From: a virus
Direction: 5' to 3' (one strand)
IMG/VR virus record: IMGVR_UViG_3300009412_000036
Span: 1-24,128 of that record
Length of the DNA stretch: 24,128 bases
Shown: one piece after another, positions 3,371 through 14,724 of the stretch
How positions within the stretch are numbered: position 1 is the first letter of the stretch
Layout: each line of letters starts with the position of its first letter
Position numbers and translations under genes: made by a program
Notes under the pieces: generated by a model
Seen by the model: only the letters and a program-made list of their open reading frames with translations
Databases searched by the model: none
What the model was told of the DNA's origin: nothing

Positions 3371-3518
3371 CGGTTCCCTCCTCGATCGCGTCAATGGTGT
3401 CGCGGGCCTGGTCGCCCTCGGCCGCGTCTCGTCCTGCCTGCCGGCTCAACAGCGCCAACGCGGCGATCAGCGCCACGATGACCGCCAAGCCGACTCCGGC
3501 CGTCACCATCCTGTTCAC
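3288..3518 (-). CDS. Rz-like inner-membrane spanin (76 aa)
   Basis: Starts at GTG 3518, overlapping the lysozyme stop as GTGA (an in-frame ATG at 3509 is an alternative). Residues 7-25 form one membrane helix (AGVGLAVIVALIAALALL). The remainder is a charged helical tail rich in Asp, Glu and Arg (RDTIDAIEEGTDAANAEERA), ending in RREW. A single N-terminal anchor plus a coiled-coil-like periplasmic domain, immediately after an endolysin and overlapped out of frame by a lipoprotein gene, is the i-spanin pattern. It is shorter than lambda Rz. Small proteins of this type are common in alphaproteobacterial prophages, usually annotated as hypothetical. Confidence 0.65.
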   Translation of the reverse strand: MNRMVTAGVGLAVIVALIAALALLSRQAGRDAAEGDQARDTIDAIEEGTDAANAEERATRGLDDDAVRDRLLRREW

Positions 3519-4267
3519 CGCAACGCCTCCAGGCAGAGGGACTGTTCCGCAGCGCGACGGTTCGTCAGCCCTCGCACCACACGGCCGCCTGCCTTGTTCC
3601 AGCGCGGAAGTTCGTTGCAGGCCCCGACCAGGTCGCCCGCCTTGGCCTTGCGGACCAGCGTTGAGCCGCAGGCCGCCCCGGCGCCGACGTTGTAGGTCCA
3701 GCTGACGAACGCAATCTGCACGCCCTCGGGATAGGTCCCGAGGTTAGGCAGGCACGCGGTCAGGTCGTCGCGATACTCGTCGACGGCGCGGGCGAGCTGC
3801 GTGTCGCACTCGGCGGCCGTGTAGGCGTCCCCGGGCCCGACGCCGCGGGTCTCGCCGTAACAGACCGTCCAGACCCCGACGATATCCTGGTAGGCGGTCG
3901 TGCGCAGTCCCTCCCAGGGACCGACGAACCCCGCGATCGCAGCGGCCGCCACGGCGCCTGCGACCCCGCCCGCAGCGCCTGCCCTTTTCCGCCCCTGTTT
4001 TCGCCGGAACAGCCGGGCGATCCACGCGAACAGGTTGATCCCGCCATCTTCCGACCGCAGGAATTCGGTGACGCCCTGGTCGATTACGCGCGCCAGTGCC
4101 GTCAGGGCCAGCATCAGCCCCATCAGCGCGGCATAGAGGTTCGTCGGCAGATGCAGCTCGAACACCGGCAAGGCGACTTCGGCCGCGGTCAGCGCGGCCA
4201 TGACATAGAGGCCCCACATGGACCAGGCGTGCGCCGCGATACGGCGCCATTCGGGGATCAGTTTCAT
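3515..4267 (-). CDS. Holin-like domain fused to GH24 lysozyme (endolysin), SAR-like linker
   Basis: Two modules are joined in one 250-aa protein. Residues 1-65 resemble the small holin-associated membrane domain of Rhodobacterales prophages (MKLIPEWRRIAAHAWSMWGL) with two hydrophobic helices at about 17-37 and 43-63. After a basic segment, residues 98-116 form a weakly hydrophobic Ala/Gly-rich helix like a signal-arrest-release domain. The lysozyme domain follows. It has the T4-type catalytic triad spacing E-8-D-5-T at Glu119, Asp128 and Thr134 (WEGLRTTAYQD, then IVGVWTVCYGET). C-terminal segments such as SWTYNVGAGAACGSTL and RWNKAGGRVVRGLTNRR also match GH24. Start ATG 4267 is eight bases after AGGAG; an upstream GTG at 4276 overlaps that site. 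It should cleave peptidoglycan between MurNAc and GlcNAc. The fusion makes membrane tethering likely. Confidence 0.85.
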   Translation of the reverse strand: MKLIPEWRRIAAHAWSMWGLYVMAALTAAEVALPVFELHLPTNLYAALMGLMLALTALARVIDQGVTEFLRSEDGGINLFAWIARLFRRKQGRKRAGAAGGVAGAVAAAAIAGFVGPWEGLRTTAYQDIVGVWTVCYGETRGVGPGDAYTAAECDTQLARAVDEYRDDLTACLPNLGTYPEGVQIAFVSWTYNVGAGAACGSTLVRKAKAGDLVGACNELPRWNKAGGRVVRGLTNRRAAEQSLCLEALR

Positions 4268-4290
4268 TGCAGTCACTCCTTTCGGGCATG

Positions 4291-5030: not shown

Positions 5031-7892
5031 CTATATTTCCGCCTGGTTCGGCGGCGCCGCGCGCTGGAAGAAATTCAGCGCCTGCCCCGGCAGGGACGCA
5101 CGGGACGGATCGGTGATCGTGATCGTGTCCGCCGCGGTATCGATCGCGGTGATCGTCGTGTCATCCGTCAGCCAGAACGGGCGGCGCGGCAGCGTGATTG
5201 CGGCCAGCGCATCGCCCACCGCCAGGCCGAAACTTGGCTTATCGCCATAAACCCCGTCTGTCCTTACGTTGGTGATAACGTTGGACCCCGCGGTGAAGTC
5301 GCCATAGAGGGCGATCGGCGGCGTGTAGATGCCGGCCGCGATCACGCGCCAGTTGCCCGCCGCCGGGTTCCAGTCCGGATCGAACAACGACACGGCCCCG
5401 GCCTCGTCCTCATACCAGTTGGTCACCAGCGTCGCGACGACCTCCCCCGAGGCCGGGTCGACGGACCGGATCGCCATCGTCGTGCCGGTCGTGTCGTCGA
5501 TCAGCGCCGACCCGTTCACGACGCCTTCATTGCGCAGCTGCGCCGCGTTGCGATCGGCATGCGTGAAACGCACCGTCCTGCCGTCGACGGCATGAGCCGA
5601 CCTTTGCGACGCGGCGATCACGTTCTGAATTTGCGGCAGCTCCCAACGCACGTTGATCTGGGCGTCCCGTTCGTCCTCGTGCAGCCCGGACACCGCGTAA
5701 GGGCTCAAGGTGAAGTCTCGGGAATTCCGTCGATCGTTGTGGTCGACCGGCGCAGCGACCTGGGCCTGGCCGTTCGATATCTTGACGGCTGACCGCGACG
5801 GAATACCGGGCGCCGTCGCGCGCGCCAGCGAAACCGCGCCCATCGTCGCCATGTAGAACAGCCGTAGATATTCGCTCGCCATCGGCTCGGCACGCGCGAC
5901 CGAAAAATCATCCATGCGCACATTGCGGCCGGTCAGGCTCAAGGCATGATGCGCCCTGATACTACCCCCCAGGAACTTCACGGATCCACCGTCGCCACCC
6001 CTGGCGTCGAGCATGGCCGGCGGCACGCACTTTTCCTGTTGCGGCTTCCACTCGCATTGAATGAACAGCGTCGGGGTGTTGGCACTGCCGCTGCCATAGA
6101 CTTCTCCGAACCGGCCGAAATTCTCGACCTGGCATTCCTCGAACGTCATCATCCGCATGCGCGACGAACTGGTCAGGCTGACCAGGTTGATGAAGAACCC
6201 GCCGCCCAGGTTGACCACCTTCCCGAGCATCGCCCCGATCGCATCGCCAGTCCGGTTATTGGTGAAGACCGCCCAGCATTTCGAGACCTCGCAATGGTCC
6301 CAGGTGTTGTTGCGGTGATTGGCATGGCTGACGGCGAAGGCGATGAAACAGCGCGAGACGTCGACGTTAAAGAACCGCATGAAATCGGTATTGGACCCCT
6401 GCGTCGACCCGCCCAGGATGGCGCCGTATTCGTAACCGCTGATTTCCAGGTCCGAAAAGAACCCCTCGGAACTGCGCTTCTTCTCGGCATCGGGGTCCGC
6501 GTCGAACCCGGCGTCGATATACCATTGCGGATAGACCACCGGCGGGCGCCCGGGTTGGGTCACATAGCCGATTGCCCCCAGCCCGCCCCCCGCGACAGGC
6601 GTCCAGTCCAGGTTGTAGATCGCAAATTCCGTGTCGCTCACATATTGCGCATAGTAGGTCCCGTCCGAAAGGCCCGCGACGCCAGTGATCTCCACGGCCT
6701 CGCCCAAACCCTCGGACAGGAACCCATGCTTGCCGGACGTGGTCGCGACTGCCGGGCTGGCCCCGGTGATCCCCGTGATCGCACGCGGCGACGGCGCGTC
6801 ACCGCCCCCGGGATCGACGTTCAGCCCCGCGCAGGCACCGTGACGACGCCGCGGCGTGACACCGGCCGACAGGACGTCGAGGTTCCACTTCTTTTCGTCG
6901 TAGAATTCCGGCGCGAACATCTCGACCGTGCCATGCGGCCCGATATCGTAATCCAGAGCGTCGTGACATGGCCCGACCAGCTTCAGCTTGCCGATCTTGA
7001 TCCCGCGCCCGCCATTGGTGACGATCCCGTCACGATCGGGCACGGTCATGATAAGCGTCGTCCCGGCCGACGCGGCGGTCCCGTAGGGCGCGCCAAGCCC
7101 CTCGACCTCGATCGTGCGGAACGCGTCGCCATACCCGATCCGAAGGCTGTCGTCGTGATAGGCCAACGAGACGTCGATCAGCGCCCCGCGGGTCCCGACC
7201 AGCGATTGATGACCGGGACCCCCATACATCGCGAAATTGACCGCGGCCTGCATCGCTGCGGTGCAATCCGTCCCGTCGACGGCGCCAAACATGCGCGCGG
7301 TGATCCAGCCGCCTTGCGAGAACGGGAAAAACTTGGTCCCGCCCGCCGATGCCGGTCCCCATGCAGCCGCCCAGGCCGACACGACGCGGAAAGAAAACCC
7401 CTCTTCGATCGTCCGCACCAGCGTGCCGGGCAACAGCTCGCCATCGAAGGCCAGCATGGCGGCGACGTTGTCGAACCGCACGTCCAGAAGATACCCGTGA
7501 AATACGGGCTCGCCGGAGTCGTTGGTGTAGATCGCGGTCCCCGGGCCGGTCTGCAGCAGGAACACGTCCCCCGGATCCGTCTTCAGGATCGCGTCTTCCG
7601 GCGTCCCGACGAAGACCTTGGCCCCCTCCGCCATCAGGGCCGCGGCGATCTGGTCGCGGACGACGGCGGCCGCGGCCTCGTGCTGCGCCGCGGCCGCGCG
7701 GTGACCGTCCGCAATGGCGGCCTGTTGGCCGGCCGTGACGACACTTTGCGCGACCCCGTCGGTCGCCCTGGCCAGTGACGCGAACGCTTGCCGCACTTGC
7801 TTCTTGGAAGGGTGGTGCTGGCCGCTGGACGGATCCCCGTCGACCCGAAAATCGCGCATAACATTGTTGACGGAGTCTTCGTGGACGCCCAT
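5031..7892 (-). CDS. Tail fibre / tailspike with beta-helix-type domain (953 aa)
   Basis: The largest gene in the window and the last tail gene. The N-terminus (MGVHEDSVNNVMRDFRVDGD) and an Ala-rich helix at about 35-95 probably attach it to the tail tip. Residues 198-220 (ARMFGAVDGTDCTAAMQAAV) match the start of pectate-lyase-like right-handed beta-helix tailspikes. Around 360-430 lies a segment of the ITG-x-SPAV-x-T-x-x-HGF type with VEITGVAGLSDGTYYAQ, a common tail-fibre repeat fold. The C-terminal third contains Gly/Asp-rich strand segments and further beta domains. Likely role: receptor binding or polysaccharide degradation. AGAGG with good spacing supports ATG 7892. No enzymatic residues could be assigned, and the receptor cannot be predicted. 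Confidence 0.85.
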   Translation of the reverse strand: MGVHEDSVNNVMRDFRVDGDPSSGQHHPSKKQVRQAFASLARATDGVAQSVVTAGQQAAIADGHRAAAAQHEAAAAVVRDQIAAALMAEGAKVFVGTPEDAILKTDPGDVFLLQTGPGTAIYTNDSGEPVFHGYLLDVRFDNVAAMLAFDGELLPGTLVRTIEEGFSFRVVSAWAAAWGPASAGGTKFFPFSQGGWITARMFGAVDGTDCTAAMQAAVNFAMYGGPGHQSLVGTRGALIDVSLAYHDDSLRIGYGDAFRTIEVEGLGAPYGTAASAGTTLIMTVPDRDGIVTNGGRGIKIGKLKLVGPCHDALDYDIGPHGTVEMFAPEFYDEKKWNLDVLSAGVTPRRRHGACAGLNVDPGGGDAPSPRAITGITGASPAVATTSGKHGFLSEGLGEAVEITGVAGLSDGTYYAQYVSDTEFAIYNLDWTPVAGGGLGAIGYVTQPGRPPVVYPQWYIDAGFDADPDAEKKRSSEGFFSDLEISGYEYGAILGGSTQGSNTDFMRFFNVDVSRCFIAFAVSHANHRNNTWDHCEVSKCWAVFTNNRTGDAIGAMLGKVVNLGGGFFINLVSLTSSSRMRMMTFEECQVENFGRFGEVYGSGSANTPTLFIQCEWKPQQEKCVPPAMLDARGGDGGSVKFLGGSIRAHHALSLTGRNVRMDDFSVARAEPMASEYLRLFYMATMGAVSLARATAPGIPSRSAVKISNGQAQVAAPVDHNDRRNSRDFTLSPYAVSGLHEDERDAQINVRWELPQIQNVIAASQRSAHAVDGRTVRFTHADRNAAQLRNEGVVNGSALIDDTTGTTMAIRSVDPASGEVVATLVTNWYEDEAGAVSLFDPDWNPAAGNWRVIAAGIYTPPIALYGDFTAGSNVITNVRTDGVYGDKPSFGLAVGDALAAITLPRRPFWLTDDTTITAIDTAADTITITDPSRASLPGQALNFFQRAAPPNQAEI

Positions 7893-7926: not shown

Positions 7927-9939
7927 TCAGCTCAGCGTGACGCTGATCGGTCCGACTTCATTGGAGGGCACGAGGCTGGGGTTCTGGACGTCGACCCAGT
8001 AATGCCAGGTGCCTACGCCGGGCTGATCTTCGTGGGTGCCAATTTCTCCGGAAACTCCTTCGCGCACCGAAACCTGCACGGAGTCCCCGAATACGTTCGT
8101 CGCGCTCCGATAGACGCGCGTGCGGTAGTAATCCGACCCGGGGTTGCGCCACGATATCGTGACAGTGTTGTCGATCAGCGTCGTGGAGAACTCGGTCGGC
8201 GCAGGTGGGGACGTCGGGTTGGAGAGGAGCGTGATCGCCGTGTTCGGGTAATCGACCGTCGCTACGCCCTGCCCTGCCCACCAGACGCGGACGCTATAGT
8301 CGCCCTCGGCGAGGACGCCGGACAGTGCCTTTCTCGCGCCCGACGCGACGCTCATCGCCCGCCAGTCGTTGGATCCGGCAAGACTATATTCAGCGCGCAG
8401 GACAAGGTCCTCCCGATCCGGGTCATCGACCTGCGCCACGATCTGCGCGCCCCGCGTTCCGGCTTGGTCGATCTGGATCGTCTCGACCGCAAGGGTCAGG
8501 CCTTGAGGGAAAGCGCCGCCCGCGACAACGGCCGGATCGTCCGGAAGCGCTGGGGCCAGGTCCTGTTCTTCGTCCTCGCCCCATGCCCAGACATCTTCAA
8601 GCGAGTGCACCGCGATGGTGCAGGTGCCGTCCGCGATGGAATAGGCATGGTCCAGGACTTCGTACACGCCCGACAGGGCCCCGGCCTCGATGCGGATTGC
8701 GTGAACCCCATCCCCTTTCGGAAAGCGCGCCTTGATGCCGACCAGGTTCGTAGTGATCGTCGCCGTCCGCGGCGGCTGCGCGCGATACATGTGGCTTTTC
8801 ATCAGCCGCTGCATCTGGTGGCCGTCCGGGCACCAGGGCACGTCCAGCGTATCGGTGCGCTCGCCCTGCGTGGCCAGCAGCATCTCGTCCCGCAACTCAG
8901 GGGCCTCGGTATCCGTAAAATCGTGATCCGAACTGAAGTACATCCCCTTGAGCACGTTGAACGCGGTCATCGGATTGCGGCCGGTGCCCCATTCGATTTC
9001 GAGGATATCGTCCTCGGTGATCGTGACATCCGGTTCGGAATACTTGCCGCCGTGCGGCGCCAGCTTGCCCTCCGTGGTCAGGTAAATGCCGCCATCGCAG
9101 GTCGCCAGCATTTCCGACAGGACGGTCGCTGGCTTGTCCTCGAGGCTATAGGCACCGGCCAGCCGGTAGCGCTTCTGGGTACCGCCGCCCTTGCGGGGCA
9201 CGGCCTCGTCGCAGATGCTGGCAAAGACGCCCCACTGTGCATCATCCATCGCCGCTGCGGGCACCCGCATGCCATCGGCGGCGACCATATAATCGCGAAT
9301 GCATAGCGCAGGATTGTCCGAATAGCGCGTCACGCCATCCCGGGTATCAAGCACCTCGACCGCCTCGACATCCATCTGGATGGAGGTCTGCGCTGCGCGG
9401 GGGAAAATCTTGCTGAAGTCCTCCGGCTTTGGCTTGCGAAACCTCGTGAAGGCCGTCACGAGGCCGCGCAGTTCGTGGTCCGAGGTCCACATGCTGTAGT
9501 CATTTCTCAGCCGCGAATAATTGGCTGTCGTGCCGTTTCTCCAATCGGCATAGATTCTCTCGTCGAGATCCACGCTGCCGATCTCGAGATTGCCGCCACC
9601 GTTTTCTTCGGCGACCTCACCGTCGACCACCCAGTTCAGCAGCCGGTGGACCGGCCCTTGGTGGTAGATGATCACCGAACTGAGGATGCCATCTTTCGCC
9701 TCGAAGAACGCGCGCACTCCGCCAAGTCGGTTCTTGCCGTAGGCGCGCTTGCGCGGTGCGTCCGCCTGGCTGACGACGGCCTGCACTTCCCGGCGTGGTA
9801 GGGATTGGTTGTCCCCCGTGATCGCCCGTGACACAGCGGTCAGCGCAAGACCGACGCCGACCTGCGTGACGGCAGAGGCGGCGGCGGCGGTCAGGCCCCA
9901 CGAGACGAGCGTGGAAGTGATCCCAGTGAAAACAGCCAT
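7927..9939 (-). CDS. Tail tip protein, lambda J / GTA gp15-like, with FN3-like C-terminus (670 aa)
   Basis: A hydrophobic N-terminus (residues 6-40) resembles that of tip attachment proteins. The central part (for example VLSEMLATCDGGIYLTTEGK and the following DVTITEDDILEIEW) follows the pattern of the TipJ hub domains. Residues about 580-670 (PPAPTEFSTTLIDNTVTISW, ending EVGPISVTL) form a fibronectin-type-III-like module. The protein should build the tail tip and carry or contact the fibre encoded next. Its ATG overlaps the GNAT stop by one base (TGATG). At 670 residues it is about half the length of lambda J, close to the compact J-like proteins of many alphaproteobacterial siphophages. Confidence 0.85.
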   Translation of the reverse strand: MAVFTGITSTLVSWGLTAAAASAVTQVGVGLALTAVSRAITGDNQSLPRREVQAVVSQADAPRKRAYGKNRLGGVRAFFEAKDGILSSVIIYHQGPVHRLLNWVVDGEVAEENGGGNLEIGSVDLDERIYADWRNGTTANYSRLRNDYSMWTSDHELRGLVTAFTRFRKPKPEDFSKIFPRAAQTSIQMDVEAVEVLDTRDGVTRYSDNPALCIRDYMVAADGMRVPAAAMDDAQWGVFASICDEAVPRKGGGTQKRYRLAGAYSLEDKPATVLSEMLATCDGGIYLTTEGKLAPHGGKYSEPDVTITEDDILEIEWGTGRNPMTAFNVLKGMYFSSDHDFTDTEAPELRDEMLLATQGERTDTLDVPWCPDGHQMQRLMKSHMYRAQPPRTATITTNLVGIKARFPKGDGVHAIRIEAGALSGVYEVLDHAYSIADGTCTIAVHSLEDVWAWGEDEEQDLAPALPDDPAVVAGGAFPQGLTLAVETIQIDQAGTRGAQIVAQVDDPDREDLVLRAEYSLAGSNDWRAMSVASGARKALSGVLAEGDYSVRVWWAGQGVATVDYPNTAITLLSNPTSPPAPTEFSTTLIDNTVTISWRNPGSDYYRTRVYRSATNVFGDSVQVSVREGVSGEIGTHEDQPGVGTWHYWVDVQNPSLVPSNEVGPISVTLS

Positions 9940-10328
9940 CAGCGCACCCAGGCAAGTTCTACGGGCCGGTAGCCCAGCCGTGATAGGTCTGGGCCGTTCG
10001 CGCCGGTGCTGAGCCGCACCCGTGCGCCGTGCTGGTCTGCCCAGCTCTCGAATGCCCGCAGGAGCCGCAACCCGCTTCGGTCAGTGGCCCGCCACCCAAG
10101 TTCGTGGGCCCAGAGATCGGATGCGACTGGCAACGCGGACAGCATACCGGCAATGAAGCCGCCCGGCGTGACGAACACGACGCCCATTGGCGAGGCGATC
10201 AGCGACAGCACGGTCGCGCGGGTCGCGGCTTCATCCACGGCCTGCGGCCCGCCGACGGTCTCCACCAGATCACGGATCAGGGCGACAACATGGTCCACGT
10301 CGGCGGCCGTCGCCTCCCTCAGAACCAT
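9939..10328 (-). CDS. GNAT family N-acetyltransferase in the tail cassette (129 aa)
   Basis: The fold signature is clear: N-terminal LREATAADVDHVVALIRDLV, then the strand pair GVVFVTPGGFIAGML, the ELGWRATDRSGLRLLRAFES acetyl-CoA segment, and C-terminal ANGPDLSRLGYRPVELAW. The usual R/Q-x-x-G-x-G/A loop is degenerate (DRSGLR), which fits other phage members but leaves activity open. GNAT enzymes transfer acetyl from acetyl-CoA to amines. Here the gene is coupled to the J-like gene downstream and overlaps the tail-tip gene upstream by ten bases. It lies where lambda and GTA clusters carry the NlpC/P60 tail peptidase. Possible substrates are tail proteins or host surface amines; none is indicated by the sequence. 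Confidence 0.85.
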   Translation of the reverse strand: MVLREATAADVDHVVALIRDLVETVGGPQAVDEAATRATVLSLIASPMGVVFVTPGGFIAGMLSALPVASDLWAHELGWRATDRSGLRLLRAFESWADQHGARVRLSTGANGPDLSRLGYRPVELAWVR

Positions 10329-10888: not shown

Positions 10889-11550
10889 AGGGCTTCCACC
10901 AATCGCACCGTGAACCGCTGGACCGCCCCGGGCACGTCCTCGATCTCGCCCTCGCCCTCGTCGGCAAGCCGCATAAGGCACGTGATCTGATCCACATCTA
11001 CGGGAGTACCCGCGGAGTGCGCGGACCGGAGTGGCGGATCGACCCGCACCATGATGGCGCCGCCGTCCGTTTCCCAGGAGAGGGCGACCCGGTGCATTCT
11101 GTCCGCGATCGAGAGACGGTGACCCGGCCGGGGGCGTTCCGCGTTCCCCAGATCTAGGGGAAGATCGGTTGCGCGTAAGGCGGCACTCTGCGCCAGCGTT
11201 ATCCGATCCTCAGACGATGTATCGAAGATCCAGTGCTCGTGCGAGGTGAACTCAGCGACGCCTTGGCCGGCCTCGCCATCGCGAGAAAGATAGCCCACGC
11301 GGTCGCTCATGTGCATGGGGACGGCGCAGGTAGCGAGCCCGCCGCGCATCCCGGCAAGCCACGCCTCCCATTCGAGACGTGCGTCCTCTTCGACCACCGC
11401 AACCGACAGATTGACCTCCCACCATGAGGTCAACGAAGGGACCAGCGTTTCCGCGCCAGAGATCGCCCGAGACCGAGAGCGCACTCGGCCTAGTAAGCGC
11501 GCCGGAGATGCTGAGATGCGGACGCGTTTCGGCCAGATCACGTCACCCAC
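10885..11550 (-). CDS. Distal tail / minor tail protein (221 aa)
   Basis: The GTG at 11550 follows GAGGA with six bases of spacing and overlaps the tape measure stop by eight bases. The protein is mostly beta and small loops: SLTSWWEVNLSVAVVEEDAR and EWEAWLAGMRGG in the N-terminal half, then a strand-rich C-terminal half with RHRVALSWETDGG-type segments. Directly after the tape measure, siphophages encode lambda M-like or Dit-like proteins that join tail tube and tip, and this product fits that slot. I do not recognise a precise family. Confidence 0.7.
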   Translation of the reverse strand: MGDVIWPKRVRISASPARLLGRVRSRSRAISGAETLVPSLTSWWEVNLSVAVVEEDARLEWEAWLAGMRGGLATCAVPMHMSDRVGYLSRDGEAGQGVAEFTSHEHWIFDTSSEDRITLAQSAALRATDLPLDLGNAERPRPGHRLSIADRMHRVALSWETDGGAIMVRVDPPLRSAHSAGTPVDVDQITCLMRLADEGEGEIEDVPGAVQRFTVRLVEAL

Positions 11551-13633
11551 GGCTGGTCCTCAGACGTTGTTCATCCAGGTAAGCCGGGGTTCTGGCGAGC
11601 GTTTCAGATGACGCTCGGTCAATCCGGGCCGAGATGGTCGTCATGATCTGGCCCCCGTCGCCCAGCACAAGATCCCCGCCAACAAGGCGCACAGGAAGTT
11701 CCCGCTGGGATGACGACAACTTGTGGTTTGGAATGACCTGCGAACCCCGCGGAAGATTCACCAGTTCTCGACCGCGTTCACCCACCCATGCCAGACCACC
11801 CGGTGCGTTGTCCGTGCCGTTGGCGAACCCGGGAATGCCCGCGAAAGCTGGGGCCATGCTCGCGGAAATTCCGCTGAACATCCAATTTCCGACATTCGTC
11901 AGGAGCATGTCGCTCAGCTGCGATAGGACGCCTGACACTGCGTCCCTCATTGAGGACGCCCCTGTGACGATGCCCTTGAACGCGTCGGTCAGGCTTCCCC
12001 TGATCGTGTCCGCCGTCTGCTCAGTTTTCTGTTTCGCTTCATCCATCGCCTGCACAAGGGCGTCGCGGATTGCGGATCCGGCCCCCTCCGCAGCCGTCGC
12101 AATTCCATCGAGCTTACCCTTCGTGCCGCCTCCCCCGCCAACGCCCGAACCTCCCCCGCCACCGGTACCGGTACCCTCATCACCCAGTGCTTCGTTCATC
12201 GCCTCGACGCTCGACGTGGTCGACGCGGTCTCGGCCTTGACGCCCGCCATAGTGTCACGCAACCGGGCGACCGCCTCACGGGCGGGTCCGAAGGCACCTT
12301 TTATGATGCCGGCCGCTTCGGCATAGGACGTTGAGGCGGCTCCATCCGCATCGTGGCCTGCGGTCATCAGGCTGCCGGAAAGACCGCTTGCGGTCTCGGC
12401 CAGCCCCATCAAGCTATCCCCCAGACCTGCTGTCAGCGGGTTTGACTGCATACCACTGGCGAGCGTCCAAACGAAATCGTGAAACTTGCTGGCCATCGCC
12501 GAAAGAGCTTTCAGGAAGCCTGCCTGCATGCTGTTCCACACGCCCTGCAAGCCCGGTGGGATCGCCTCGGCCGAGCCGATGATCCCCTGCCAGACCGCGC
12601 CGGCGACGTCTCCCAGGAGGGCCAGCGCATCACCCCATCCACCGGTGGCGGTGACCAACCGTCCGAACCAGAGAACCATCTCACCCGCGGCTACGATCAG
12701 GGCTCCGATGCCGGTCCGGATCAGGGCAGTGCGAAGCAACGCAAGCGATCCCGCAAGGGTCAAGGTCGAGAGCCGTGCCAAGGCAAGGGCGCCGACATAG
12801 CGCACGCCAAATGCCGCTACGGCGACCGACACGTAGGCAGTGAGGCGATCGAGATTGCCGACCAGTCCGTCGATCACGGAGCGCAGCATGCCACCCTCGC
12901 GCAGGCTGTCGGTCATGACCTGTGCGAGACGCCCCATCGCGGGTACCAGCGCGAGAGCGAGCTGCTGGCCCGCATATTGCGAAATCAGGCCGAGCCGGCC
13001 CAAACGGTCATTCGCCTGCTCGATCCTGGCAGCATCCACGGCGTCGAGTGCGAGGCCATATTCATCGACATCAGCCCGGGCCGCTCGAATGGCATCGCCA
13101 CCTTGGATCATCAGCAGGGCCATTTCTCGATTGCGGACCCCGAGGTCGCGCAGCACGGCCGTGGCTGCACCTGCGCTCAAGCCGAGCGCTTTCACGCGGT
13201 CCGCGATCAGCGCGACCCTCTGGTCGGCGTCGAGTCCGGTAAGATCCGACACCGCGATGCCGAGCCTTTTCAGCGCCCGATCAGCGTTTCCCGAGGTGCC
13301 GATATTCGCGATCTCGCGCGCCATGTTCTGCACATCGTTCGTCAGCCCCGAGAGGCTGACACCGGCCTCGCTCGCGGCCAACTCGAGCGCCCGGAATCCT
13401 CCGATCGAGGCATCCAGACGCCGGGCCGCCTTTGCCGCGCGATCGATCTCCTGAGCGCCTTTCAACGCGGCTGCACCAATGGCCGTACCGAGCGCCGCTG
13501 CGGTGCCAGCCACAGCCATGAAGTGCTTGCGCATCCTCTGCAAAGATTTGCCCGCGCGCTTGGAGCCGCTGTCGAACTTGGCGCTGTCGAGCCCCAGATT
13601 GACCCGGAGCGCACCGATGACGGATTGTGCCAT
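11543..13633 (-). CDS. Tail tape measure protein (696 aa)
   Basis: A long, mainly helical protein that sets tail length. The N-terminus (MAQSVIGALRVNLGLDSAKF then DSGSKRAGKSLQRMRKHF) is typical of phage tape measure proteins. Long Ala-rich helices follow, with hydrophobic segments at about 38-58 and 275-330. A Gly-rich stretch (residues about 480-500) separates the helical body from the C-terminal part, which carries FANGTDNAPGGLAWVGERGR and ELVNLPRGSQVIP, a motif shared by many tape measures. AGGAGG lies upstream of ATG 13633. It is preceded by the frameshifted chaperone pair, as in lambda. Confidence 0.9.
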   Translation of the reverse strand: MAQSVIGALRVNLGLDSAKFDSGSKRAGKSLQRMRKHFMAVAGTAAALGTAIGAAALKGAQEIDRAAKAARRLDASIGGFRALELAASEAGVSLSGLTNDVQNMAREIANIGTSGNADRALKRLGIAVSDLTGLDADQRVALIADRVKALGLSAGAATAVLRDLGVRNREMALLMIQGGDAIRAARADVDEYGLALDAVDAARIEQANDRLGRLGLISQYAGQQLALALVPAMGRLAQVMTDSLREGGMLRSVIDGLVGNLDRLTAYVSVAVAAFGVRYVGALALARLSTLTLAGSLALLRTALIRTGIGALIVAAGEMVLWFGRLVTATGGWGDALALLGDVAGAVWQGIIGSAEAIPPGLQGVWNSMQAGFLKALSAMASKFHDFVWTLASGMQSNPLTAGLGDSLMGLAETASGLSGSLMTAGHDADGAASTSYAEAAGIIKGAFGPAREAVARLRDTMAGVKAETASTTSSVEAMNEALGDEGTGTGGGGGSGVGGGGGTKGKLDGIATAAEGAGSAIRDALVQAMDEAKQKTEQTADTIRGSLTDAFKGIVTGASSMRDAVSGVLSQLSDMLLTNVGNWMFSGISASMAPAFAGIPGFANGTDNAPGGLAWVGERGRELVNLPRGSQVIPNHKLSSSQRELPVRLVGGDLVLGDGGQIMTTISARIDRASSETLARTPAYLDEQRLRTSRG

Positions 13634-13647
13634 TTACCTTCGCCCTC

Positions 13648-13974
13648 CTAGGATGGACTCGCGCCCCATGCGCCTGCCACCAGGTCGAACATTGCCTGTA
13701 TTTCGTCAGGGTTCTGGGGCGACCGATCCGATTTTGGCCGCATGAACTCACGCAACGACATCAGTTTCTTGGAGCGATGCAGAGCCTCGATATGCCACGC
13801 CAGCCAGGCGCGATCTTGTTGCTCGCCCTCCAGGCGATCCCGCGCCCCCATCATGTGGCAATAGAATTCGCGGTGGCTCAGCTCCCAGAACGCCGCGGGG
13901 TCGAAACCGGCGGCGACATAGGCCCTTTGCAGGCCTTCGAGCGTTACCGCTTTGCCGCCGCCTTGCGCTTTCCC
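13648..13974 (-). CDS. Tail assembly chaperone, T-like extension made by -1 frameshift
   Basis: This frame is read after a -1 shift at 13968-13974 and gives a fusion of the 110 N-terminal residues of the upstream chaperone with 106 more (AQGGGKAVTLEGLQRAYVAA through GAWGASPS). The segment GFDPAAFWELSHREFYCHMM and the WLAWHIEALHRSKKLM that follows look like the C-terminal tail-assembly-chaperone domain of alphaproteobacterial phages and GTAs. The frame has no ATG, GTG or TTG between the shift site and residue 37 of the domain, so independent initiation is unlikely. In lambda the equivalent gpGT binds the tape measure protein and recruits tail tube subunits. Confidence 0.8.
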   Translation of the reverse strand, partial: GKAQGGGKAVTLEGLQRAYVAAGFDPAAFWELSHREFYCHMMGARDRLEGEQQDRAWLAWHIEALHRSKKLMSLREFMRPKSDRSPQNPDEIQAMFDLVAGAWGASPS

Positions 13975-14297
13975 TTGGTCGTATTCCCGGCGTTTTGATC
14001 TGCTGGCAGATCGGGTGCGGCCGCGCTGATCAGCCGGATCAACACATCGCTGTCTTCGGAAAGAATATCCCCGGCAACAACACGATCCGCCTCTGGGTGA
14101 TGCCGCGACAGTGCGCAATGGATCATCGTGATCATCTCGCTGATCTTGGCGGCGCCACTTTCCGCCCTCTCCGCCCAGGCAAGCGCGTCCTCGCCGGTCT
14201 CGGTCTCGAAGGCGGCGAGCGCATTCATGTCCATACGCAACGTGTAGGTCTTGCCCTCGGATGCGGCGGCGATCTCGCCTCGGAACTTGTTCGCCAT
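13944..14297 (-). CDS. Tail assembly chaperone, G-like / GTA gp10-type (117 aa)
   Basis: Begins MANKFRGEIAAASEGKTYTL, followed by RMDMNALAAFETETGEDAL, the layout of the GTA gp10-like tail assembly family. A short helical core (ISEMITMIHCALSRHHPEAD) and a Lys/Ala-rich C-terminus (TTKGKRKAAAKR) follow. The zero-frame product stops at TAA 13946-13944. About seven codons before that stop lies G GGA AAG in the correct phase for -1 slippage into the next frame. The gene sits between tail tube and tape measure as in lambda. It should act as a chaperone and is not expected in the mature virion. Confidence 0.85.
   Translation of the reverse strand: MANKFRGEIAAASEGKTYTLRMDMNALAAFETETGEDALAWAERAESGAAKISEMITMIHCALSRHHPEADRVVAGDILSEDSDVLIRLISAAAPDLPADQNAGNTTKGKRKAAAKR
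13968..13974 (-). promoter_or_regulatory. Programmed -1 frameshift slippery site GGGAAAG
   Basis: The minus strand reads GGGAAAG, phased as G GGA AAG in the frame of the upstream chaperone (the codons GGA 13973-13971 and AAG 13970-13968 are 108 and 109 codons after the start). Slipping back by one base repairs the tRNAs on GGG AAA and continues with GCG in the downstream frame. This is the same heptamer as in the lambda G/T overlap. The zero-frame stop follows 22 bases later. Confidence 0.85.
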
Positions 14298-14301
14298 CCG
14301 C

Positions 14302-14724
14302 TTAGACCCCCGATGCCGCCAGGAGAACGGGTTTTGCGGTCGGCCGGATCGTGACGGTCGCCGTCATGGTCCCGGTCGACAGGTCACCGGGTTCATAGGA
14401 GGTCACGAACCCCGGAAACTGCATACGGACCCCGTTCGGGGCCGTGATCTGGAACGTATTCGACTTCTTCTCGAAGGCCGCAAGGACCGGGTCGGTCTGG
14501 CTCGGCTTCCAGTTGATGTCGAACTCACAAGGGGTGGCCTCTTTCATCCCTGCGATGAATTCCTTGAACCCGTCCGGGCTTTGAAGGTGCGTGACCTCTT
14601 CCTCGTCCCGGCTCCACCCGACCGGCTTGATCCGTGTGATTTCCACCCCGAGGTCCGGGAACTCGCCCGGTGTTTCGCCCTCGATTCCCAGTTTGGCCAG
14701 GTAGCCGATATCCGCGTCGCTCAT
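14302..14724 (-). CDS. Major tail tube protein (140 aa)
   Basis: A beta-rich protein starting MSDADIGYLAKLGIEGETPG. The segments VGWSRDEEEVTHLQSPDGFKE and FIAGMKEATPCEFDINWKPS, and later TFQITAPNGVRMQFPGFVTS, are characteristic of phage lambda-V/TP901-type tail tube subunits. Start ATG 14724 overlaps the stop of the upstream gene as ATGA. Many copies polymerise around the tape measure to form the non-contractile tail. Position between the DUF3168-type completion protein and the chaperone pair agrees. Confidence 0.85.
   Translation of the reverse strand: MSDADIGYLAKLGIEGETPGEFPDLGVEITRIKPVGWSRDEEEVTHLQSPDGFKEFIAGMKEATPCEFDINWKPSQTDPVLAAFEKKSNTFQITAPNGVRMQFPGFVTSYEPGDLSTGTMTATVTIRPTAKPVLLAASGV

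Follow-up and report, generated by a model that had tools for sequence, protein, structure and literature searches.

Tail genes and reading frames at the locus

The virus record IMGVR_UViG_3300009412_000036 is a contig of 24,128 bases, which was analyzed over its full length and is called the window below. It carries the head and tail module of an HK97-type siphophage. The head and connector genes encode the small and large terminase, portal, protease, major capsid and connector proteins. The tail series comprises the tail tube (PF16461), ORF1 (PF11836, Phage_TAC_11), ORF2, the tape measure, the distal tail protein and a J-like central tail fiber. The phage is kin to phages that infect alphaproteobacteria.

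Several further features were seen on the minus strand of the contig. An acetyltransferase-like gene (phrog_1249; 9939-10328) lies amid the tail tip genes, before and adjoining the central tail fiber gene. A single protein encoded at 3515-4276 combines a phage lysozyme domain (PF00959, E 1.4e-38) with an N-terminal DUF7940 stretch (PF25612, E 4.7e-12). Beyond the tail fiber gene, positions 5031-7892 encode a protein of 953 amino acids (aa) without a PHROGs match, whose position would suit a receptor-binding or spike protein. This ORF is overlain by a long antisense ORF (5946-7778, plus strand) and contains the most stable RNA folds found in the window on either strand (7627-7722).

The locus under study covers 13648-14297 on the minus strand, the range correctly given in a first-pass annotation of this DNA. 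It is located between the gene for the major tail tube protein upstream (14302-14724, minus strand; PF16461, E 1.5e-12) and the tape measure gene downstream (11543-13633, minus strand; phrog_8462, E 3.9e-49). ORF1 (13944-14297, minus strand) starts with an ATG at 14297, ends with a TAA at 13946-13944 and encodes a gpG-like tail assembly chaperone of 117 aa. This protein belongs to the Phage_TAC_11/GTA-gp10 family, as it matches PF11836 with 35.5 bits (curated cut-off, 27.8; E 1.1e-8) and the tail protein family phrog_2115 (E 3.4e-10).

Near the end of ORF1, a GGGAAAG heptamer is present at 13974-13968 (minus strand). Since (14297-13974) mod 3 = 2, it is read in the ORF1 frame as G_GGA_AAG, which is the X_XXY_YYZ phase that the first-pass annotation had assigned to it. 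The distance from the heptamer to the ORF1 stop, estimated there at about 22 bases, was counted as 21 nt. After a −1 shift the frame (GGG AAA GCG CAA ...) stays open for 106 codons past the slip, up to a TAG at 13650-13648, and the product of the shift is a 217-aa fusion. When the codons of ORF1 were shuffled, 1.1% of the shuffles had an in-phase X_XX(A/T) heptamer within the last 12 codons, and 0.2% had GGGAAAG there.

The extension, ORF2 (13648-13968, minus strand; 106 codons plus TAG), had been described as lacking a start codon nearby, and this was confirmed. The starts in the −1 frame are a TTG at 14118, deep in ORF1, a CTG at 13932, and ATGs at 13854 and 13851, within the conserved domain. 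Translation from the TTG would read about 48 codons of ORF1 in the wrong frame. No ATG, GTG or TTG was found in the stretch that separates the slip site from the conserved domain in the window, and the same was true for most relatives. In the −1 frame, the GC content of the extension by codon position is 0.67/0.46/0.73, as in the neighboring genes, and its base composition resembles that of real genes in this frame only.

ORF2 would encode the T-like domain of the fusion, related to Phage_TAC_6. The profile of this tail assembly chaperone family (PF09550) was matched by 20 of 23 sampled members of the ORF2 family at E<=0.1 (best, 6.9e-6); the ORF2 of the window does not itself reach E 0.1, and its membership is by family. 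It matched phrog_19318 with E 1.1e-22, and ORF2 alone matches just PHROGs of unknown function. AlphaFold predicted a helical core with confidence, at a mean pLDDT of approximately 95 over residues 11-60. No relative of the domain was found in the PDB by sequence or by fold, BFVD gave weak matches only (none at E<=0.001), and in NCBIfam neither ORF1, ORF2 nor the tail tube protein had a match. Judged by the profile matches and the gene order, ORF1 (PF11836) and the ORF2 family (PF09550) are a predicted tail chaperone pair between the tail tube and tape measure genes.

Conserved −1 relation and changing slip sites

To collect relatives, viral and genome contigs were scanned with ORF2 and its alignment. 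The scan yielded 131 loci with a conserved AWLAWHI-type motif, of which 70, including the window, were non-redundant at the junction. ORF2 lies in the −1 frame, overlaps ORF1 and is open across the ORF1 stop in all 69 non-redundant loci with a complete ORF1. The same layout is present in the isolate phages Paracoccus Shpa, Pben1 and Pthi1 and Caulobacter Kronos, and also in Agrobacterium phage Rivra. In the annotation of all five, the second gene is a separate "hypothetical protein"; splitting or mis-starting by annotators had been predicted for this gene and is what is seen in these Paracoccus, Caulobacter and Agrobacterium phages. At the junction of Rivra, whose second gene has been given a late start in the annotation, the sequence is CGC_CCC_AAG, a C_CCC variant. 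With the frameshift reading, the gene model of the second tail chaperone is put right for a large phage group in which it has been split off and mis-started.

Clustering at 70% protein identity gave 40 clusters, and a recognized in-phase slip motif was found at the junction in 39 of them. The sole exception (locus L090, 2468-2525) has weak candidates (C_CCG). Of the 40 clusters, 10 have an in-phase X_XX(A/T) heptamer within the final 66 nt, compared with 0.95 expected from codon shuffling, and 23 have C_CCU_C there (expected, 0.70). For CCCTC in the same 66 nt, the slip phase was counted 25 times and the two other phases 0 times each. The enrichment of in-phase slip sites was 10- to 33-fold.

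G_GGA_AAG/C is present in the window, in its nearest relatives L001 (Puniceibacterium) and L002, and in several others. GGGAAAG directly abuts the stop in L001 (GGGAAAG TAG), and adenine-type sites are flush with or adjoin the ORF1 stop in several loci. C_CCA_AAC/U adjoins the stop in one group, and CCCAAAC is at or beside it in L099 and L115. Other sites are A_AAA_AAC/G in L123, L133 and Shpa (A_AAA_AAR also occurs in the family), C_CCC_CCG in Kronos, L091 and L127, and C_CCU_UUG in L106. The commonest site among the relatives is C_CCU_C, often inside A_AAC_CCU. The codon preceding CCU is CGC, CAC, UCC, GGC or AGC in about 15 clusters; in most of these the tRNA on that codon could hardly pair again after a −1 shift, suggesting that only the proline tRNA slips. 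By eye, a GGAGG was seen approximately 15-20 nt upstream in some loci, a Shine-Dalgarno-like candidate stimulator.

Conservation of heptamer and phase in relatives was one check named in the first-pass annotation. The −1 relation was conserved in 69/69 loci and an in-phase slip motif in 39/40 clusters; the exact heptamer is limited to the nearest relatives and a number of other loci. The first-pass annotation also named heptamer loss among close relatives as an argument against a frameshift. This does not apply as worded, since the nearest relatives keep the heptamer and other in-phase sites are present elsewhere.

In Brucella-type loci, an upstream GGGAAA-like site is mutated (L006, L009 and L052) or meets a TGA in the −1 frame (L007 and L008), and GGGAAAT was dropped as a slip site in these loci for this reason. 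In L006 and L007, a 28-nt box is left, with CGC_CCU_CCG as its only plausible site. These loci may be viewed as a natural experiment for the CCU site, strong and not conclusive, because a two-frame protein constraint could also favor CCCUC.

Slip sites are kept as a phenomenon and not as a sequence, the site having been swapped repeatedly among relatives. Around 40 diverged clusters with one frameshift and swapped slip sites are a natural series in which the rules of bacterial −1 frameshifting can be tested outside E. coli. They also make it testable whether a second lysine tRNA disfavors AAG-type sites.

Predicted RNA structure, proposed mechanism and alternatives

Downstream of the heptamer, a spacer of 5 nt (CGCAA; 13963-13967, minus strand) precedes a predicted three-way junction (13909-13962, minus strand), which is the candidate stimulator in view of its fold energy, a synonymous-codon null and its positional rank. 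An outer stem of 10 bp (GGCGGCGGCA/UGUCGCCGCC), in which 13962-13953 pairs with 13918-13909, encloses two hairpins at 13951-13940 and 13936-13920. In the predicted fold, the first of these hairpins has the ORF1 stop UAA (13944-13946, minus strand) in its loop. The fold has a predicted energy of −34.6 kcal/mol in 55 nt, and only 5 of 16,050 sequence windows from both strands were equally stable. When the stretch was recoded synonymously, 0 of 200 recodings were as stable (z −3.5). Dinucleotide shuffling gave z −4.2 for a 55-nt stretch and a milder z −2.15 for an 86-nt stretch (8/200 as stable). The positional rank of the fold was 0.015 in the window and 0.031 in the nearest relative, L001.

In the C_CCU class of relatives, a hairpin often starts approximately 5-8 nt past the CCU, with the ORF1 stop in its loop in many loci. 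The sequences of the hairpin arms vary between groups and complementarity is retained. The positional test gave p 8e-5 for this class; taken together, loci of the heptamer class showed no significant placement of downstream structure (KS p 0.45). Pooled over 37 cluster representatives, which are not fully independent, the synonymous-codon test gave p ~1e-10. These two nulls were used because the hairpin sequences aligned with MAFFT were too heterogeneous to count covariation formally. A search of Rfam over the junction returned just one match, antisense and subthreshold (22.7 vs 56.8 bits).

The lambda-type −1 frameshift put forward in the first-pass annotation is supported by the phase of the heptamer, the gene position, the absent start and the −1 relation in 69/69 loci. 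Together with the conserved slip motifs and the predicted RNA structure, these observations are the basis of the mechanism that we propose. That ribosomes slip here, how often they do so, that the structure stimulates the shift and that the products serve tail assembly are inferences from them. The second tail chaperone is very probably made by programmed −1 ribosomal frameshifting at GGGAAAG, so that two chaperones would be produced from one start. Most ribosomes would translate ORF1 to the UAA and release the 117-aa chaperone. A minority would pause at the three-way-junction RNA 5 nt beyond G_GGA_AAG, the Gly and Lys tRNAs would move back by one base to GGG AAA, and ORF2 would be read, giving the 217-aa fusion. 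Following the model of lambda gpG/gpGT, the 117-aa form may bind the tape measure protein, and the C-terminal domain of the fusion may recruit tail tube subunits.

The shift could also take place at G_GGA_AAG with the heptamer being sufficient and the downstream structure having no part in it. This would agree with the nonsignificant placement of structure in the heptamer class as a group, in view of which GC-rich coding could in part account for the fold in the window. The synonymous-codon null speaks against such an account. The fold is exceptionally stable and starts 5 nt past the heptamer, with a similar rank in L001; we consider a shift without the structure unlikely. Much less probable still is that ORF2 is a separate gene, translated from its own start by coupling or by reinitiation after the ORF1 stop. 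Isolate-phage annotators treated it in this way, and the homologous chaperone of Rhodobacter-type gene transfer agents has its own start (see below). Neither the enriched in-phase slip sites nor the fixed −1 frame would be needed for reinitiation, and an own start was rejected for the window, in which the −1 frame has no usable start codon.

Two other explanations are so improbable that we give them hardly any weight. In a lone sequence, two abutting frames would look the same if a single gene had been broken by a frameshift mutation, as in a pseudogene, or by a sequencing error; this is refuted by the recurrence of the layout, with a conserved extension protein, across 69 non-redundant loci and the isolate genomes. 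The shift could instead arise from slippage of RNA polymerase, which certain bacterial genes containing long runs of A or T employ (PMC3711429), but the longest run is 3 in GGGAAAG and also in C_CCU_C. Moreover, the phase of the slip sites is tied to the codon frame, which slippage at the RNA level does not require.

Gene transfer agents, lysine tRNAs and known systems

PF11836 corresponds to g10 of the Rhodobacter gene transfer agent, RcGTA (PMC11409702). In the Rhodobacter-type family of Puniceibacterium (L278-L305), the second chaperone has its own ATG or GTG, often with an ATGA overlap, in 11 of 11 analyzable agents, suggesting that these agents either lost the frameshift or never had it. 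In the rhizobial family around L053, g10 and the next chaperone gene are in the −1 relation in 25/25 automatically analyzed loci. The rhizobial agent loci (L219-L248 and L335-L348) mostly have AAC CCU or AAC CCC at or near the first stop, and most further loci agree. Many contain a TTG, GTG or ATG overlapping the first stop, so that reinitiation is possible in those. No stop-overlapping start is present in at least eight (L219, L220, L223, L236, L240, L241, L244 and L248), and these agents probably need the frameshift too. Should the shift be required in rhizobial agents as well, the models of their chaperone genes would be wrong too.

A second lysine tRNA is thought to affect slippage on AAG, E. 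coli being contrasted with Thermus (PMC5009743). We found tRNA-Lys(CUU) in 27 of 31 rhizobial-family genomes vs 1 of 31 Rhodobacter-type genomes (L205-L209, L249-L277 and L306-L334), a tally in which a diverged tRNA could be missed. This distribution parallels that of C_CCU vs AAG-type slip sites, in a comparison of few lineages uncorrected for phylogeny. In the rhizobial genome G017, tRNA-Lys(UUU) was the only one found, and A_AAA_AAG precedes the stop. It is conceivable that the choice of slip site among these phages and gene transfer agents follows the lysine tRNAs of the host; this link is a tentative hypothesis that rests on few lineages. With tRNA-Lys(UUU) alone, AAG/AAC heptamers such as G_GGA_AAG might work. 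With tRNA-Lys(CUU), reading AAG tightly, C_CCU (often A_AAC_CCU) plus a hairpin might have taken the place of such a site, and rhizobial agents might still depend on the shift for the second chaperone.

Tail chaperone frameshifting is already known, and the heptamer of the window is the textbook one; slip-site turnover and the predicted stimulator appear to be new aspects of a known mechanism. The literature search, with most subscription papers outside its reach, returned no C_CCU-plus-hairpin class in tail genes, no three-way junction in a tail chaperone gene and no frameshift in gene transfer agent chaperones, which is weak evidence that these three are new.

The slip heptamer of lambda is G_GGA_AAG. 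The window has an in-phase heptamer near the gene end, an overlapping −1 frame without a start, the position between tail tube and tape measure genes and a conserved layout, as expected for a lambda-type frameshift. With lambda gpG/gpGT it shares the heptamer, the −1 direction, the place before the tape measure gene, and the predicted short product plus C-terminally extended fusion. It differs from lambda in that the pair is assigned to other Pfam families (Phage_TAC_11/Phage_TAC_6), a strong three-way junction is predicted 5 nt downstream, and other slip sites occur among its relatives. Frameshifting has been established for the tail chaperone genes of lambda (PMC5009743), and with a stimulator G_GGA_AAG ranks among the most efficient heptamers in E. 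coli (PMC4066793, Sharma et al. 2014).

RcGTA-like g10/g10.5 resembles the window in its homologous first protein, in gene position and in a second protein with an FW.LTP.E motif. The agents themselves differ in the second gene, which has its own start in the sampled Rhodobacter-type family and is in the −1 frame behind A_AAC_CCY in the sampled rhizobial family. The IS911 stimulator is a three-way junction (PMC5009743), and as in IS911/IS3, where an elaborate structure follows the slip site within a few bases, the predicted junction of the window lies 5 nt downstream. The IS signals belong to transposase genes and were tested in E. coli, whereas that of the window belongs to tail genes and is predicted from sequence. 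Among the Z_ZZN tetramers, C_CCU shifts to −1 in E. coli only with a stimulator (PMC4066793), and the hairpins of the C_CCU-class relatives fit this need. C_CCU was a weak site in the same study and was not named among the main IS-element tetramers (PMC4066793), yet it is the commonest site in this phage family.
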